NCBI GenBank assembly: GCA_025362395.1
Contig: JANYGK010000079.1
Location: 1-62,758 of the forward strand
Direction: 5' to 3'
DNA: 62,758 bases
Source of the DNA: Bacteroidota bacterium
Lineage (GTDB): Bacteria; Bacteroidota; Bacteroidia; B-17B0; Aurantibacillaceae
The stretch's first letter is position 1; each line of letters starts with the position of its first letter. Made by a program: the position numbers and the translations under genes. This document shows positions 33,764 through 43,705 of the stretch, piece after piece. The notes below the pieces were generated by a model that saw only the letters and a program-made list of their open reading frames with translations, had not been told where the DNA came from and ran no database searches.

Positions 33764-34702
33764 GTGAAAAATCCGGAATATATATTTATAGGTGGAACCT
33801 ATAGGGGATATAAATTATTAGAGGCTTTGTTACTCAATAACTACATACCCTCTTACTTGGTAGTATTGAAAGAAGACGATCATGAAGTCGATAAATATTC
33901 AAATAATATTATTCAGCTTGCAACAGCAAAGAATATAAATTATAGTGTAAAGAAAAAATTAAATTCAATTGATTTTGAAATTATAAAAAGCCGGGAATTT
34001 GACTTTGCTTTAGTTTGTGGTTGGAGAACCATCATACCGGACGAATTAAATAAACAGTTTCGAATGGGAATGCTGGCAGCCCACGATTCGCTTCTGCCAA
34101 AATACAGAGGGTTTTCCCCTTTAAACTGGGCGATAATAAATGGCGAAAAAGAAACTGGTGTGACCTTGTTTCGGATTAATGAAGGAGAAGTTGATTCCGG
34201 TGATATTATAGAACAAGAAAAAGTGACTATTGAAAGTCTGGAATATGCTATTGATGTTTATGAAAAAGTTACACAGGCTACCATTAGTGTGCATTTGAAA
34301 TTTTTGACTGATTTTAAGAACGGGACTTTAAATTTTAGTAAGCAACTAGAGAGCGAAGCTACTTATACTTGTAAACGCAGCCCGGCAGATGGTAAGGTGA
34401 ATTGGAATAAAAGCTCGGAGGAAATATTTAATTTTATCCGTGCTTTGGCACATCCTTATCCGGGTGCTTTTTGTGAATACGGTGGTAAGAAGTATCATAT
34501 AAGAAAGGCGGCATTAGGAAAAAATAATTCAAAAAAATATTCCGGTAAAATAGTTGGAAGAGTAATATCCGTACAACCGGATTATATTGAAGTAATGTGT
34601 GGAGAAGGTACTATAAATATTACGCAATGGGAGGATAAAGAGAATGGCATCGTCGAATCACCGTCTGTTCTTGTTAAATCAATTGTAGCAACATTATTAT
34701 GA
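33764..34702 (+). CDS. Sugar N-formyltransferase (ArnA/FMT-type domain)
   Basis: This 312-residue protein starts at GTG directly after the previous stop. It has the formyltransferase core AAHDSLLPKYRGFSPLNW with His107 and GEVDSGDI with Asp144, plus a C-terminal domain (RSPADGKVNWNKSSEEIFNF, AHPYPGAF) like ArnA/FMT. It would formylate an amino sugar with N10-formyltetrahydrofolate. The catalytic triad Asn of ArnA/FMT (two residues before His) is Ala105 here, so activity or mechanism needs thought. The following GT2, SDR and aminotransferase genes resemble a dispersed Arn-like pathway. Confidence 0.82.
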   Translation: MKNPEYIFIGGTYRGYKLLEALLLNNYIPSYLVVLKEDDHEVDKYSNNIIQLATAKNINYSVKKKLNSIDFEIIKSREFDFALVCGWRTIIPDELNKQFRMGMLAAHDSLLPKYRGFSPLNWAIINGEKETGVTLFRINEGEVDSGDIIEQEKVTIESLEYAIDVYEKVTQATISVHLKFLTDFKNGTLNFSKQLESEATYTCKRSPADGKVNWNKSSEEIFNFIRALAHPYPGAFCEYGGKKYHIRKAALGKNNSKKYSGKIVGRVISVQPDYIEVMCGEGTINITQWEDKENGIVESPSVLVKSIVATLL

Positions 34703-36620: not shown

Positions 36621-37744
36621 TCGCAATTGCCAAACCTTATTTAACTACCGAAGAAGCACAATATGCTTATGATACTATTTTAAGTGGTTGGGTTACCCAA
36701 GGGCCTAAAGTGCAGGAGTTCGAAGAAAAATTCGCTAAATATACAGGTTCAAAATATGCTGTAGCATTATCAAATTGTACTACTGCACTACATTTAGCAA
36801 TGATCATAGCCGATATTAAAGAAGGGGATGAAGTTATTTGTCCAAGCATGAGTTATGTCGCAACTGCCAATTCTATTAAGTATATGAATGCAGTTCCTGT
36901 ATTTGCTGAAGTTAACGATCAATATAATCTTGATGTACATGAGGTTGAAAAGCTGATCACCTCTAAAACCAAAGCCGTATTATTAGTTCATCAAATAGGA
37001 ATGCCGGCTGATATTGATGCATTTAAAAAACTTTGCGAGAAATACAATCTTAAATTGATAGAAGATGCTGCCTGTGCAGCCGGTTCATCTTACAAAGGAA
37101 ATAAAATCGGTTCGCATTCTGACTTGGTATGTTTTTCTTTTCATCCGCGTAAAGTGATAACAACCGGTGATGGCGGTATGATTACCACAAATAATGAAGC
37201 CTATTATAAACGCGCGAAATTATTACGACAGCATGCAATGTCTGTTAACGACAGGGAACGGCATGCTTCCGCTAAAATAATTTTTGAAGATCATTTAGAA
37301 GTTGGCTACAACTATAGGATGACAGATATCCAGGCAGCGGTTGGAATTAAGCAATTGGAAAAACTGGATTTCATTATTTCTGAAAGAAGAAAGATTGCCG
37401 AAAAATATAATGAAGCATTTAAAAATATAGAGTGTATTAATATTCCTTATGAAAAAGAAGGCTATTTTACCAATTACCAATCATACTCAATTTTCACTAA
37501 ACCCAATGCCCATGTATCCCGTAATCAGTTTATGGAACTGATGTTGGAAAAAGGAATTTCAACAAGGCGTGGTATTATGACTTCTCATAGAGAAAGTGCT
37601 TACAAATTAGATTATAAAGACTTGAAAATGCCCATGTCAGAAATGTATTGTGACAACAGTGTTATTTTGCCTTTGTATTATCCTATGGCAGATTCTGATA
37701 TTGAAACTGTTATTGAAAACGTGAAAAGTTTTTTAAATGCTTAG
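36617..37744 (+). CDS. DegT/DnrJ/EryC1 sugar aminotransferase, probably 4-amino type
   Basis: This 375-residue PLP enzyme has GWVTQGPKVQEFEEKFAKY at the start, ALSNCTTALHLAM, IEDAACAAGSSYKGN and the PLP lysine in CFSFHPRKVITTGDGG. The SFHPRK form and G-W-V-T-Q-G-P opening match perosamine/ArnB/PglE-like enzymes that aminate 4-keto sugars. It overlaps the SDR gene by four bases, and the product could be formylated by the protein at 33764 and loaded by the GT2 at 34699. Substrate stereochemistry is not predictable. Confidence 0.87.
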   Translation: MIAIAKPYLTTEEAQYAYDTILSGWVTQGPKVQEFEEKFAKYTGSKYAVALSNCTTALHLAMIIADIKEGDEVICPSMSYVATANSIKYMNAVPVFAEVNDQYNLDVHEVEKLITSKTKAVLLVHQIGMPADIDAFKKLCEKYNLKLIEDAACAAGSSYKGNKIGSHSDLVCFSFHPRKVITTGDGGMITTNNEAYYKRAKLLRQHAMSVNDRERHASAKIIFEDHLEVGYNYRMTDIQAAVGIKQLEKLDFIISERRKIAEKYNEAFKNIECINIPYEKEGYFTNYQSYSIFTKPNAHVSRNQFMELMLEKGISTRRGIMTSHRESAYKLDYKDLKMPMSEMYCDNSVILPLYYPMADSDIETVIENVKSFLNA

Positions 37745-39455
37745 TAATAAAATTAAACTATATAAAGTTGAAACTTATGTAGCGGTAATTTTATTTATTG
37801 TATTTCTTTTTTATTTTATTCCCGCTTCAAATCACAATATAAGGCAACACGATGAGTTTGACGGGAATTTTACGTCACGCTATTTAATTGTGAATTCAGG
37901 AGCTTTTTTTGAGACAAATCCGGGCACCATCATTTATGGTACGATGAACGGGTTACCAAGGGCAAACTTTGTAAGGTTTACCGAGCCTGTTGCCTTGTTA
38001 ATGTATCTGTTCGGATCTTTACCGGGTTATGCAATAGCATTTATCATCATGCGGTTAGTAGCTTTTTTAGGTATTTATGTGTTGGGAAGAGATTTTTTAA
38101 AGTTTGATAATGAAAAGAAGGGTATACTTATTTTAATAAGCGTATGTTTTGCCTGTTTGCCTTATAACACATCCTATTTTTTATCAATTGCCGGCATCCC
38201 CATTGCATTCTGGGCTTTTTTAAATATTAAAAATAAACAGAGGTTAAGAATTTCATTTATCACCTTAGTGTTATTTGCAGTCAGCTCTAACTTTGTTTTA
38301 GTAGGCTTTCATTTATGTTTTGTATTTGGATTGATCGCTCTATTTTATAGTATAAAACATAAAAAAATATATTGGCTTTTATTTGCAGCAATTGCCGCAA
38401 CAGGTATAACATATATTTTAACGGAATATATGATGTTTTATATGCATCTGTTTAATCATTCATACCATTCATCAAGAGAAGGTTTTGAAAAATTATTAAG
38501 CTTAAATTTAAAAGGAGTTTTAGGAATATCATTCACAAATATTTTTTTAGGTGAATATAATGCAACTAATTATTTTGGTTATTTATTTATGCCTTTTATG
38601 ACCTATTATGTATTTATTATAATAAAAGATAACCATGATCCTGTAAATAGGTTAGCAGTGTTATTTATTGTAGTAACTATTATGTGTGCATTACTGACTA
38701 CTGTTTTTGATTGGAACAAAATGGGTTTCTTTTATGAGACATTTAGTTTTGCTAAAATTTTTAATTTAAAGCGCTTTATTTCTATACTGCCGGGATTATT
38801 TTTTATTATCTTAATGTTTACCTTAATGAGCATCAATACTAAAAAAAATAAGGTGCTGCATGTAGTTACATTACTGACATTGTATTTATTTTTTATCCTT
38901 ATTTGGCGCGGGAATATAAGCAGGAACCGCAGCAGCTTTAATTGTACAGGGCTTACCATAAACGGGGACCGGCCGAACACGTTCAATCAGTTTTTTAATG
39001 AAAACATGTACAAACAAATTAAAAAAGACATAGGTAAAGATTCCGTTAACAATGTCATTAGCTTTGGTTTATTACCGGCGCCTTGTAAATACGTTGGGTT
39101 AAATGTGTTAGATGATTACCAGGGAGATTATCCTTTGGAATATAAGCAACAATTCAGGAAAGTAATTGCACGTGAGATCGACAAGTCATTACAACTAAAA
39201 GAACTGTTCGACGGGTGGGGTTCTAAATGTTATTTATATTCAGCGAATGAAATTGCCAATACATTGCAAACAAAAAACGGGTTCGAGTATGAACCAAACT
39301 TGGAAATTGATACAGAACAGTTAAAAAAAATGAATTGTAAATATATTCTCTCTTCAATATTAATAGGCAACTCAAAAGATTTGAATTTAGAATTCCAAAA
39401 AGTGTATGTAAGCGCCTTAAATAAACAAAGTATTATCCTTTATAAACTTATATAA
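37737..39455 (+). CDS. Large polytopic membrane protein (DUF6044/GT-C-like)
   Basis: The 572-residue protein has about ten to twelve membrane segments and a C-terminal soluble part (about 420-572). After the first helix it carries NIRQHDEFDGNFTSRYL; an acidic motif in the first extracytoplasmic loop is typical of GT-C glycosyltransferases. It resembles YkoS/DUF6044-type proteins, whose function is not established. A lipid-linked sugar transferase or a polymerase are both possible, and it is the only large membrane candidate for such a step in the cluster. It overlaps the upstream gene by eight bases. Confidence 0.55.
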   Translation: MLSNKIKLYKVETYVAVILFIVFLFYFIPASNHNIRQHDEFDGNFTSRYLIVNSGAFFETNPGTIIYGTMNGLPRANFVRFTEPVALLMYLFGSLPGYAIAFIIMRLVAFLGIYVLGRDFLKFDNEKKGILILISVCFACLPYNTSYFLSIAGIPIAFWAFLNIKNKQRLRISFITLVLFAVSSNFVLVGFHLCFVFGLIALFYSIKHKKIYWLLFAAIAATGITYILTEYMMFYMHLFNHSYHSSREGFEKLLSLNLKGVLGISFTNIFLGEYNATNYFGYLFMPFMTYYVFIIIKDNHDPVNRLAVLFIVVTIMCALLTTVFDWNKMGFFYETFSFAKIFNLKRFISILPGLFFIILMFTLMSINTKKNKVLHVVTLLTLYLFFILIWRGNISRNRSSFNCTGLTINGDRPNTFNQFFNENMYKQIKKDIGKDSVNNVISFGLLPAPCKYVGLNVLDDYQGDYPLEYKQQFRKVIAREIDKSLQLKELFDGWGSKCYLYSANEIANTLQTKNGFEYEPNLEIDTEQLKKMNCKYILSSILIGNSKDLNLEFQKVYVSALNKQSIILYKLI

Positions 39456-39901
39456 TGGTATTATCCGATATAAAAAATCACTCCCGGTATAGTAATCTTC
39501 ATCCTCTGTTTTCACAGGCATTCAGTTATCTTGAAAACATGGAAATAGAAACTTTAACTGAAGGTAAAACAGAAATTAACGGCGATGATTTATTTGCTAT
39601 AATTTCTAAGCCCGGAAATTCTATAGAGCAAACGCCAAAGTTAGAAGCGCACAAAAAATATATTGATATACATTATACTATTGAAGGAACAGAGCTGTTT
39701 GGTTGGAAAAATTTAACGAATTGCAAAAACGTAGAGGGAGAATTTAATATTGAAAAAGATTTTGTTATTTACGATGATCAGGATTTTACAGCCCTGCTAT
39801 TACAGAAAAATACTTTTGTAATAGTATATCCTGAAGATGCCCATGCTCCCGGAATTAAAACAGAGAATTTACAAAAAGTAGTGTTAAAAATTAAAATATA
39901 G
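39455..39901 (+). CDS. YhcH/YjgK/YiaL family protein (NanQ-like)
   Basis: This 148-residue beta-barrel protein has LEAHKKYIDIHYTIEGTELF and VIVYPEDAHAPGI, the signature His/Glu metal-site segments of the YhcH/YjgK/YiaL family. Members such as NanQ are linked to sialic-acid metabolism and act as sugar anomerases or isomerase helpers. It sits one base before a NeuB-like fusion gene and so probably serves the nonulosonic-acid branch, perhaps acting on the N-acetylhexosamine precursor or the open-chain product. Function by family context only. Confidence 0.85.
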   Translation: MVLSDIKNHSRYSNLHPLFSQAFSYLENMEIETLTEGKTEINGDDLFAIISKPGNSIEQTPKLEAHKKYIDIHYTIEGTELFGWKNLTNCKNVEGEFNIEKDFVIYDDQDFTALLLQKNTFVIVYPEDAHAPGIKTENLQKVVLKIKI

Positions 39902-39904
39902 AAA

Positions 39905-41572
39905 ATGAAAGTTATTGCGGAAAGCGCTTATAACCACCAAGGAAATTTTGACTATCTCAAAAAGCTTGCTGTAGCCGCTAAAGAAGCAGGCGCTGATTTT
40001 TTTACAGTGCAAATGATGAATGTTGAAGAGTTTTGCACAAAAGAATATAGTAAATATCAATTATATAAAGATACTGAGTTTAGCGAAACTCAATGGAAAG
40101 ATCTGTTCAAATACTGTAATGAAATTGGTATACCACTTATTCCGTGTACGCTTGAAAAAGCATCATTTGACTTGGCATACGATTTTGGTTACCGCGTAGT
40201 TAAAATTCATGGTACAGATTTAACGAATGACTTTTTTTTAAAATATATAAAAGATAAAGGTGATTGCAGGATCATCCTCGAAACACAATGTAGTACTGAT
40301 TATGAAATAAAAAATGCAGTAGCAAAATTTGGCGACATTATTGAATGTTTATTTCATGGCTTCAGCAATTATCCTACAGAGCCCAATGAACACAATTTGT
40401 TAGCTTTAAATTATTTAAAGAACAGGTACAATTTACAAACAGGTTTTGCGGATCACAGCCTCGATACACAAATTATTCCATGTATGGCTATGGCTTTAGG
40501 ATGTAGTTATATAGAAAAACATATCACTTTGCATCGCAGCGACAGGCAGTTTGATTACCAGGTTTCTTTGGAGCCGCATGAGTTTTCGATTATGGTTAAT
40601 ACACTTAGGCAATATAACCAATCGCTTGGTAAACCGGTTAAACATCCCGTAAAATCAGAAAAGGGATATCGTAATATCCTTTTTAAAAAATATTTTGGGA
40701 ATGGCGTGTTTAAACGCGATAACGAAGGGAAAACATTTATAGAGAGTGAGATTGACACCTTTGATAAAAATAATATTACAGCAGCTTTGATTGCAAGATT
40801 AAAATCAAAACGCCTGAAACTAAAAGTTATGAAACCTTTTGGAGAAGATGAATCAATCATTTCTCTTTACAAACGATTAGTAAAAAACTGTAAGAATATA
40901 ACACACATTGAATTAGCAACGAGTTATCTTTTGGAAGATGAGCCATTGGCGGAATTATTTCAACAAAAAAACCTGCCTCATTACGAAGGACATCCGGAAA
41001 GCGTTATAGATCGCTTGTTAGAAGTGGCAATTAAAAATAAGTCTGCCGCAGTGTTCAGGGTTACAGGCGATAATCCTTTTACTGACCCGGTATTGATGGA
41101 CAGAATGGTAACTATTTTTAAAGAGCAAGATGTAGATTATGTCCGTGTTAATAATGTGCCGTTTGGTGTGAGTGCGGAATTATTTAAGACAAGTTACTTA
41201 TGGAAGCTCTATTTGAAAATGAATGACCCTTTTGTAAGCGAGTACCTGTCCTGGTTTGTTTTGAACGATGAGGAGTGTAAAAAAGCATGTATAGAATTTG
41301 AAGATGAGAGGGCATTTGTAAAGTATGTGAACTTAAGCATTGATTACCCGGAAGATTATGAATATGCTACAAGCGTGCATAAGCGTATTAATATTACACC
41401 ATTTGAGGACATTACGCTTAAAGATCTATTAAATAATATAACTGATAAACATATTGTTGATATTACTAAATTTATAAAACTACCGGGAGGAATAAATATT
41501 TTATACAGTGATTACATGAAATTAATAGATGAAACACACTATGTATATAAAGAAAAATTTATAATTAAATAA
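39905..41572 (+). CDS. NeuB-like nonulosonate synthase fused to SpsF-like cytidylyltransferase domain
   Basis: The 555-residue protein has two domains. Residues 1-250 are the NeuB TIM barrel (KVIAESAYNHQGNFDYLKKL, VVKIHGTDLTND, GFADHS, YIEKHITLHR). The usual SAF antifreeze domain is absent; instead residues about 285-540 resemble SpsF/CMP-sugar cytidylyltransferases (AALIARLKSKRLKLKVMKPF, FRVTGDNPFTDPVLMDRMV). The nucleotide loop R-x-x-S-x-R-L-P-G-K is altered to RLKSKRLKLK. It may couple synthesis and CMP activation of a sialic-acid-like sugar. The next gene is a complete second NeuB. Confidence 0.82.
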   Translation: MKVIAESAYNHQGNFDYLKKLAVAAKEAGADFFTVQMMNVEEFCTKEYSKYQLYKDTEFSETQWKDLFKYCNEIGIPLIPCTLEKASFDLAYDFGYRVVKIHGTDLTNDFFLKYIKDKGDCRIILETQCSTDYEIKNAVAKFGDIIECLFHGFSNYPTEPNEHNLLALNYLKNRYNLQTGFADHSLDTQIIPCMAMALGCSYIEKHITLHRSDRQFDYQVSLEPHEFSIMVNTLRQYNQSLGKPVKHPVKSEKGYRNILFKKYFGNGVFKRDNEGKTFIESEIDTFDKNNITAALIARLKSKRLKLKVMKPFGEDESIISLYKRLVKNCKNITHIELATSYLLEDEPLAELFQQKNLPHYEGHPESVIDRLLEVAIKNKSAAVFRVTGDNPFTDPVLMDRMVTIFKEQDVDYVRVNNVPFGVSAELFKTSYLWKLYLKMNDPFVSEYLSWFVLNDEECKKACIEFEDERAFVKYVNLSIDYPEDYEYATSVHKRINITPFEDITLKDLLNNITDKHIVDITKFIKLPGGINILYSDYMKLIDETHYVYKEKFIIK

Positions 41573-41573
41573 C

Positions 41574-42608
41574 ATGACTTATATTATAGGAGAGATAGGG
41601 CAAAACCATAATGGCTCAGTTGACATTGCAAAGCTAATAGTAGATGCCGTTGCCAGACCTTTAACAGAGGAACTTTTTGGGTATGAGCTTAAGCGTATGG
41701 ATGCCGTAAAATTGACCAAACGTGATTTAAAACAAGAGTTATCAGCTTCCCAAATGGCTGCCCCTTATATAAATGCAAATTCATTTGGAGCTACTTACGG
41801 CGAACACAGGGAAAAGTTGGAGCTAAATGATGAGCAGCATTTGGAAGTGTATAAATATGCTAAATCGTTTGGTCTTGATTTTGTTGAAACACTTTGCGCT
41901 ACAGGATGTTTAAGTATGCTTAAATTATTTAGCCCCGATAAATTAAAAGTAGCAAGCAGGGATCTAACCAATCTGCCTTTATTAGCTGCCTTGGCTGAAA
42001 CAAAAATTCCTATTATAGTTTCTACAGGCATGGCAGGTAAAAAAGAATTAGATGATGCAATTGATGTCATTACCAAATACCATAATAATATCAGTATTTT
42101 ACATTGCGTATCAGAATATCCTACAAAGCCTGAAAACGTAAATTTAAATACTGTAAAATACCTTCAAAAAAATTATGGTCAATACACTATTGGTTTTTCA
42201 GATCATACAATAGGTATTTCAACGCCTTTAGCGGCAGTGGCGATGGGTGCCCAAATTATTGAAAAGCATATTACGCTTGATAGGAGAATGAAAGGAACTG
42301 ATCAAAAAGGTTCGCTCGGTGCCGATGGAATCTATCGTATGGTAAGAGATATCCGTGTATTTGAAATGAGCTTAGGAAAAGAAGATATTTTTATTGAACC
42401 TTCAGTAATGAGCTCACGTGTAAAGTTAGAGCGATCTATCGCCACTAATAAAAATTTAAAACAGGGACACATCATTACTGATCAAGACATTCACATGCTG
42501 TCTCCCGGTGACGGGTTTAAATGGGCCGATAAAGGCAGTGTAGTTGGTAAAACGGTAAAGACAGCCATCAATGAGAATGAAATTATTTATATTAAAAATA
42601 TAGAATAA
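41574..42608 (+). CDS. N-acetylneuraminate synthase family enzyme with SAF domain (NeuB/PseI-like)
   Basis: The 344-residue protein has the complete NeuB architecture: a TIM barrel (YIIGEIGQNHNGSVDIAKLI, KVASRDLTNLPLL, IVSTGMAGKKELDDAI, GFSDHTIGISTPLAAV, IIEKHITLDRRMKGTDQKGS) and a C-terminal SAF domain (about 285-344, RSIATNKNLKQGHIITDQDI). It would condense phosphoenolpyruvate with a C6 amino sugar or its phosphate. A KdsC-like phosphatase two genes on suggests a phosphorylated product as in the Kdn/Neu5Ac-9-phosphate route. The exact acid cannot be told from sequence. Confidence 0.88.
   Translation: MTYIIGEIGQNHNGSVDIAKLIVDAVARPLTEELFGYELKRMDAVKLTKRDLKQELSASQMAAPYINANSFGATYGEHREKLELNDEQHLEVYKYAKSFGLDFVETLCATGCLSMLKLFSPDKLKVASRDLTNLPLLAALAETKIPIIVSTGMAGKKELDDAIDVITKYHNNISILHCVSEYPTKPENVNLNTVKYLQKNYGQYTIGFSDHTIGISTPLAAVAMGAQIIEKHITLDRRMKGTDQKGSLGADGIYRMVRDIRVFEMSLGKEDIFIEPSVMSSRVKLERSIATNKNLKQGHIITDQDIHMLSPGDGFKWADKGSVVGKTVKTAINENEIIYIKNIE

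Positions 42609-43705
<1,097 letters not shown>

Follow-up and report, generated by a model that had tools for sequence, protein, structure and literature searches.

The closest described systems belong to the synthesis and activation of nonulosonic acids. In NmeNANAS, the residues reported to contact an analogue of the tetrahedral intermediate include Glu25, Gln55, Lys129, Asn184, and Tyr186, together with Ser213, His215, Glu234, and Arg314 (PMC6795526). The CMP-KDN route of Bacteroides thetaiotaomicron is described with a phosphorylation and dephosphorylation logic of the 9-phosphate type (PMC6200933). In Bacillus subtilis, legionaminic acid arrives at the spore surface only when spsF is intact; SpsF was placed as the CMP-Leg step, with complementation of the spsF mutant reported as failed (PMC7439481). 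Fusions are also on record, including a NeuB-phosphatase fusion in Leptospira interrogans (PMC3438082) and an SpsF-like/aldo-keto reductase fusion in Moritella, the latter thought to replace NeuA (PMC7371886). In our searches of the open-access PMC literature, we found no description of a NeuB-cytidylyltransferase fusion or of a NeuB without its PEP site.

We analyzed a window of 62,758 nucleotides (the whole stretch of DNA under study), in which a gene with an ATG start on the + strand (39905..41572) encodes a protein of 555 aa. The gene was defined by its open reading frame, its Pfam matches, and six full-length homologues; its product is composed of a NeuB barrel lacking the PEP site, a linker, and an SpsF/KdsB-like cytidylyltransferase. 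We consider it fairly probable that this protein carries out CMP activation in a KDN-like pathway and that the NeuB paralogue fused to it no longer works as a normal PEP-dependent synthase. CMP transfer and a KDN-type product are the activities predicted from the protein families.

For the domain assignment, the 555-aa sequence was compared with Pfam. The NeuB family (PF03102) matched residues 24-245 (1.3e-42; 146.4 bits against a curated cutoff of 22.1), and CTP_transf_3 (PF02348) matched residues 297-439 (9.1e-14; 52.2 bits against 22.6), whereas no SAF match was found anywhere in the protein. Hence, the domain search bore out the sequence-only reading on a NeuB barrel followed by an SpsF-like half in the place of SAF, and did not assign the C-terminal half to an unrelated family. 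In the AlphaFold model, the NeuB-like (beta/alpha)8 barrel occupies residues 1-242 (39905..40630, +), with ten-residue blocks of residues 1-240 at pLDDT 75-98. Fold comparison by VIA-align gave Z 32.9 with 6ncs (rmsd 2.6, 249 aligned), Z 31.9 with 2wqp (rmsd 1.6, 240 aligned), and Z 28.9-32.9 across the eight NeuB-family entries listed; this comparison is informative for the barrel only, and the absence of other families from it carries no meaning. The whole-fusion model reached a pTM of 0.49; the linker was poorly modelled, as were some stretches of the C-terminal half, including the nucleotide loop. For this reason, the relative placement of the domains was not used.

The cytidylyltransferase domain covers residues 287-555 (40763..41569, +), as delimited by PF02348, the model, and the fold match. 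When modelled alone, it reached pLDDT 94.0 and pTM 0.92 and aligned with the Leptospira cytidylyltransferase 6oew at Z 27.1 (rmsd 2.2, 229 aligned, 24% identical), and the CMP-Kdo synthetases listed scored between Z 15.5 and 18.7 (1gqc, 18.7). The motif A-R-x-x-S-x-R-L is present as ARLKSKRL, and both motifs with Asp (TGDNP and IDYPED) are retained; we take these Asp motifs to be catalytic and likewise presume the role of the loop motif. With the match to 6oew and the conserved Asp motifs, the C-terminal half likely works as a cytidylyltransferase, and the CMP-activation role suggested earlier for it is likely as judged from the model. The nucleotide loop, RLKSKRLKLK (R298 to 307; 40796..40825, +), was compared with SpsF-like relatives. 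It is identical in four of the seven fusions without SAF, and the other three have RLKSQRLKQK, RLKSQRFKQK, and RLKSKRLKEK. The earlier reading gave this sequence correctly and was right that Pro-Gly is missing, but calling the loop altered did not stand: both positions vary among the aligned SpsF-like relatives, so the absence is not peculiar to the window fusion. The loop was accordingly discarded as the main novelty.

The linker (residues 243-286; 40631..40762, +) lies where SAF would be and was delimited by pLDDT and by an R271-D-N-E-G motif. Residues 242-278 have pLDDT below 50, although four orthologues share 84-93% identity over residues 243-286, and an R-x3-G motif occurs within the linker in 7/7 fusions without SAF. 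In motif likeness only, it resembles the R-x3-G of the SAF-domain Arg314 loop, so that Arg314 may not have disappeared entirely from these proteins. Pfam found no SAF in the window protein, L083, or L182, and a NeuB-SAF profile found none in the 6/6 informative members of this subgroup, the seventh (L169) being the same protein as L182 cut at the wrong place. Pfam also found no SAF in the fusions of about 600 aa (L039, L040, L086, L088, and L110).

The barrel sites were then read in Neisseria NeuB numbering. In the window barrel, Lys53 is replaced by Thr, Ser132 and Cys182 by Gly, Ser154 by Glu, and Ser213 by Ala; the barrel retains Glu25, Gln55, Lys129, Tyr186, Asp214, His215, Glu234, His236, and Asp247. 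In the alignments, the Ser154 position is Glu126 of the fusion (40280..40282, +), and Ala182-Asp183-His184 (40448..40456, +) marks the loss of Ser213 beside the retained metal ligand His215. All seven fusions without SAF have Glu at Ser154, Thr at Lys53, Ala at Ser213, and Gly or Ala at Ser132. We take Ser132 and Ser154 of NeuB to hold the PEP phosphate. The aligned residues indicate a barrel that keeps the metal ligands and the sugar-side residues and has lost the PEP-side serines.

These losses bear directly on the proposal that the barrel hands fresh acid to the second domain, for which we found no support: serines 132, 154, and 213 are gone, and the canonical synthase is the product of the neighbouring gene. 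A bifunctional enzyme, in which a barrel with a rebuilt phosphate pocket would still be a PEP-dependent synthase passing its product to the cytidylyltransferase half (the channelling of the earlier reading), is in our judgment unlikely. It is consistent with the retained metal ligands, Glu25, Lys129, Tyr186, and Asp247, with the close fold match to NeuB, and with canonical NeuB-SpsF fusions of the opposite order (G193 and G454); the changed pocket could still accept PEP, with Lys129, an inhibitor contact, retained in the window protein. However, the four replacements recur in 7/7 fusions, and another NeuB was always nearby (20/20 genomes), so that a second synthase is unneeded for one product.

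For a wider comparison, 164 barrels were compared after thinning of duplicates: 37 altered, 126 canonical, and one other (L119). The set is a non-random sample, as many loci were fetched for their resemblance to the fusion. A barrel was called altered when Ser154 or Ser213 was lost together with Gly182; because these sites define the group, only the other columns, the linkage, and a tree without the motifs are independent of the definition. Canonical NeuBs have Ser154, Ser213, Lys129, and Lys53 in 126/126 and Ser132 in 124/126, whereas in the altered group Ser154 is found in 3/37, Ser132 in 17/37, Lys53 in 25/37, and Lys129 in 29/37. A smaller set had been compared before this one (145 of 193 barrels once duplicates were removed, 143 with all sites); there, with Gly182 outside the definition, Gly182 was present in 24/25 altered barrels against Cys in 115/118 canonical ones. 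FastTree, run on the 163 of 165 rows retained after a 93% identity cut, placed the 37 altered barrels in one clade with support 1.0. The clade persisted with the active-site motif columns removed (support 0.972), and the seven fusions without SAF formed a subclade (support 1.0).

Outside this subclade, 23 of the 30 altered barrels have a SAF by our NeuB-SAF profile (E < 0.01), and three (L040, L172, and L170) have a weak one by the same means. L039 has no convincing SAF by this profile, and L177, L041, and L171, cut inside the cytidylyltransferase, are uninformative for it. Loss of SAF is thus a trait of the subgroup and not of the clade, and we rejected it as the defining change of the altered barrel. 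By eye, Arg314 showed no consistent match between altered barrels and their neighbouring NeuBs; in L043 and L044, the altered barrel lacks Arg314 and the neighbour has it.

Glu25, Asp214, His215, Glu234, Lys235, His236, and Asp247 are invariant in 37/37 altered barrels. This invariance weighs on a further alternative, a non-catalytic scaffold that would bind the nonulosonate or NeuB2, the downstream NeuB, and tether the activating domain. Tethered proteins are typically fused or encoded by closely paired genes, and the PEP side is eroded; nevertheless, invariant metal ligands and several invariant sugar-side residues go beyond the needs of a mere scaffold, and the SAF kept by 23/30 other clade members also argues against it, leaving a scaffold unlikely. 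Selection was also considered. Among four orthologues, dN was 0.12-0.19 for the barrel, 0.10-0.20 for the cytidylyltransferase domain, and 0.09-0.21 for NeuB2. The synonymous distance was too large to compute in 6/6 comparisons for the barrel and in most comparisons across the three regions. Since its dN is like that of the other two and the synonymous distance is very large, the barrel is under constraint (purifying selection).

Altered-level scores were found in 10 of 395 genomes in a spread sample of the phylum, and a class-level sample, which overlaps the first, gave altered-barrel matches at E 1e-49 or better in 19 of 395 genomes. Three altered members that were scanned fell far below the NnaB and PseI equivalog cutoffs, though Pfam NeuB matched them. 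Two of the 98 records with Azospirillum plasmid matches were inspected (L187 and L188), and both hold ordinary NeuB genes by motif; a neighbour in L188 is annotated 'glycosyltransferase family protein'.

Full-length fusions without SAF, of about 553-559 aa, were found in six other Bacteroidota genomes, so the same two-domain architecture does exist elsewhere. Identity to the window fusion was 85% in G081, 79% in G010, and 78% in G033. It was 53-54% for the barrel and 41-44% for the C-terminal half in G092 and G097, and 56% and 49%, respectively, in G725. Two of the six genomes belong to family f14 and one to family f85; those three are 41-56% identical per domain. A NeuB2 orthologue (70-87% identical) and a gene of the KDN-9-phosphatase type lie close by in 6/6 of these genomes, and the phosphatases near the fusions exceed the NF058599 cutoff in 7/7, the window included. 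A YhcH gene stands upstream of the fusion in 5/7, G092 and G097 being the exceptions. Between NeuB2 and the phosphatase, 3/7 (window, G033, and G725) have a CysE-like gene. Although G725 belongs to another family, it matches the window in the order YhcH, fusion, NeuB2, CysE, and phosphatase, whereas G081 has a DegT-like gene between fusion and NeuB2. An assembly or annotation artefact might be suspected, as the source of the window is a draft assembly in 118 contigs; because the fusion recurs in six other genomes with a NeuB2 orthologue and a phosphatase nearby, chance and misassembly are excluded. The seven independent copies refute an assembly error, and we give an artefact practically no probability.

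In the window, the gene preceding the fusion (39455..39901, +) encodes a YhcH/NanQ-like protein (DUF386; PF04074, 4.6e-42), a possible nonulosonate anomerase that scored 97.5 bits against 45.5 for TIGR00022 and 82 bits for the anomerase model NF040884, below its cutoff of 160. Directly after the fusion, NeuB2 (41574..42608, +) matches both NeuB (PF03102, 6.1e-65) and SAF (1.2e-08), as expected of the complete NeuB noticed there at the outset. It retains S132, S154, and S213, has Ser at the Arg314 position, and falls below the NnaB and PseI equivalog cutoffs; it is a candidate synthase of KDN-9-P or a related 9-P. It is followed by a serine acetyltransferase-like (CysE-like) hexapeptide protein (42609..43205, +; EpsC-type 131.6 bits, below the cutoff of 150), possibly an O-acetyltransferase, and by a KDN-9-phosphate phosphatase of the KdsC family (HAD) (43202..43705, +; NF058599, 240.7 bits against a cutoff of 180). 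In the window genome, the other PF02348 match is KdsB by TIGR00466 (215.1 against 155.2); of the NeuB matches, the third proved to be a DAHP synthase.

Other genes of the surroundings were recorded. A 572-aa protein is encoded beside the YhcH gene (37737-39455) and is 46-60% identical in L040, L042, L049, and L050. A formyltransferase-like gene of the same cluster (33764-34702) lies between a DegT aminotransferase and a glycosyltransferase; L049 and L050 have a hexapeptide acyltransferase-like gene in its place.

The link of the altered barrels to CYTIDYLYLTRANSFERASES took two forms: of the 37, 18 carry an SpsF-like domain in the same protein and 14 have one encoded next to them (on the same strand and no more than 250 bases away), a total of 32/37. 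The remaining five comprise one with an SpsF-like gene elsewhere in its locus and four seen only in loci of about 3.7 kb, one of which (G545) has an SpsF-like gene one gene further on in a longer stretch. Among canonical NeuBs, 2/126 are fused and 15/126 adjacent (17/126); since these also adjoin or fuse to SpsF-like partners, such a partner does not need an altered barrel. The fair test of linkage uses loci found with the barrel alone as query, because the other set came from a search with the whole fusion. In the best 30 loci of the barrel-only query, linkage was 9/9 for altered barrels against 1/21 for canonical ones (Fisher p 7e-7). In viral contigs, it was 1/3 against 7/56 and not significant (p 0.36), and a viral-contig scan with the C-terminal domain alone gave no matches.

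Additional arrangements were seen in single loci. The viral-collection contig IMGVR_UViG_3300009605_006683 encodes a 590-aa fusion of altered barrel and cytidylyltransferase (L110:5980-7752), and the altered barrel of L109 is divergent and unfused, the cytidylyltransferase gene standing at another place in that locus. In L175, L179, and L180, an altered barrel with the motif HGVQNFPT stands in direct tandem with a canonical NeuB; L185 also has HGVQNFPT in its altered barrel and a cytidylyltransferase one gene further on. A class III aminotransferase gene directly follows the altered barrel and its cytidylyltransferase in L042 (6619-7947).

The reverse order occurs in G193 and G454, where an SpsF-like domain is N-terminal to a canonical NeuB and a gene of the KDN-9-phosphatase type follows. 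Given these opposite-order fusions, the two functions appear to have been fused on more than one occasion. The reverse fusion is encoded at L091 (4870-6615) and L092 (5847-7640), where the canonical NeuB part bears a SAF and is 42-46% identical to NeuB2, and a gene of the KDN-9-phosphatase type follows.

Among the loci from the whole-fusion and barrel-only searches, the genomes with a recognised altered barrel numbered 22, and 20 of them (all but G037 and G057) were examined. In 20/20, the altered barrel has another NeuB no further than about 9 kb away, recognised by canonical motifs in 19/20 and by family score alone in G255. The partner cytidylyltransferase is the only clear candidate for a CMP-nonulosonate synthetase in 12/20, a count of PF02348 matches that leaves out those below 35 bits and presumed KdsB, the latter confirmed by a family model for the window genome only. 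Two of those 12 genomes have no KdsB-like match, and the other 8/20 have further candidates. With a NeuB within about 9 kb in every genome and a sole candidate in 12/20, what the canonical NeuB makes is most likely activated by the partner domain, with the altered barrel accompanying that activation.

In the pathway that we propose, NeuB2 would condense a 6-phosphosugar, most likely mannose-6-P, with PEP, and the KdsC-type phosphatase would take off the 9-phosphate. Equilibration of the anomers may fall to the YhcH-like protein, and the C-terminal domain of the fusion would activate the KDN-like acid with CTP. The metal site of the barrel would most likely bind the nonulosonic acid, or the aldose half of it, and the barrel may modify what is bound or present it for activation. 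A tentative and distinctly improbable extension is that the altered clade comprises nonulosonate-tailoring enzymes, which would break and remake the C3-C4 bond (retro-aldol and aldol) and so serve as a C4 epimerase or a pyruvate aldolase; the step would become irreversible through CTP activation by the partner. Both the pattern of retained and missing residues and the pairing with activation would be compatible with retro-aldol epimerisation or with pyruvate aldolase chemistry. In the narrower version, the barrel is a metal-dependent pyruvate aldolase whose unfavourable condensation is pulled by CTP-driven activation in the same protein. The loss of the PEP-side serines, the retained metal and aldose side, and the frequent pairing with an activating enzyme agree with it; on the other side, another NeuB occupies the same neighbourhood in 20/20 genomes and we know of no pyruvate aldolase chemistry in the NeuB fold, and we hold this version very improbable.

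Judged by its residues and domains, the barrel is a NeuB-fold protein failing two features of the synthase, the PEP-side serines and SAF. Members of the altered branch match the NeuB Pfam family, and annotators will therefore probably take them for a second sialic acid synthase. If the altered barrel is no synthase, the numbers of nonulosonic acids predicted from NeuB counts are off, and an unassigned step lies between synthesis and activation. An altered barrel travelling with the activating enzyme in related bacteria hints at an undescribed step in surface-sugar synthesis. The fused form offers one protein in which that step can be weighed against CMP transfer, with KDN as a simple candidate substrate.

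Compared with known systems, the window fusion shares the barrel fold, together with the metal histidines, Glu25, Glu234, and Asp247, with NeuB/SiaC (2wqp and 1xuu), SpsE (1vli), PseI (8h2c), and the Leptospira NeuB (6ncs). It differs from these in lacking SAF and S132, S154, and S213, in having Thr for Lys53 and Gly for Cys182, and in being fused to a cytidylyltransferase. The C-terminal domain has the fold and the Asp motifs of 6oew, SpsF, KdsB, and NeuA; unlike them, it is the C-terminal half of a larger protein, and its loop lacks Pro-Gly, as in some SpsF-like relatives. As in the CMP-KDN pathway of B. thetaiotaomicron, in so far as that source describes it, the fusion loci hold a KDN-9-P phosphatase (7/7), a canonical NeuB, and a cytidylyltransferase; here, however, the cytidylyltransferase is fused to an extra NeuB barrel without the PEP site, and YhcH lies upstream in 5/7. 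The fusions of L. interrogans and Moritella also join nonulosonate enzymes, and in Moritella an SpsF-like domain stands in for NeuA, but their partner domains are others, and the parts of those reports that bear on the fusions describe no barrel without the PEP-side serines.
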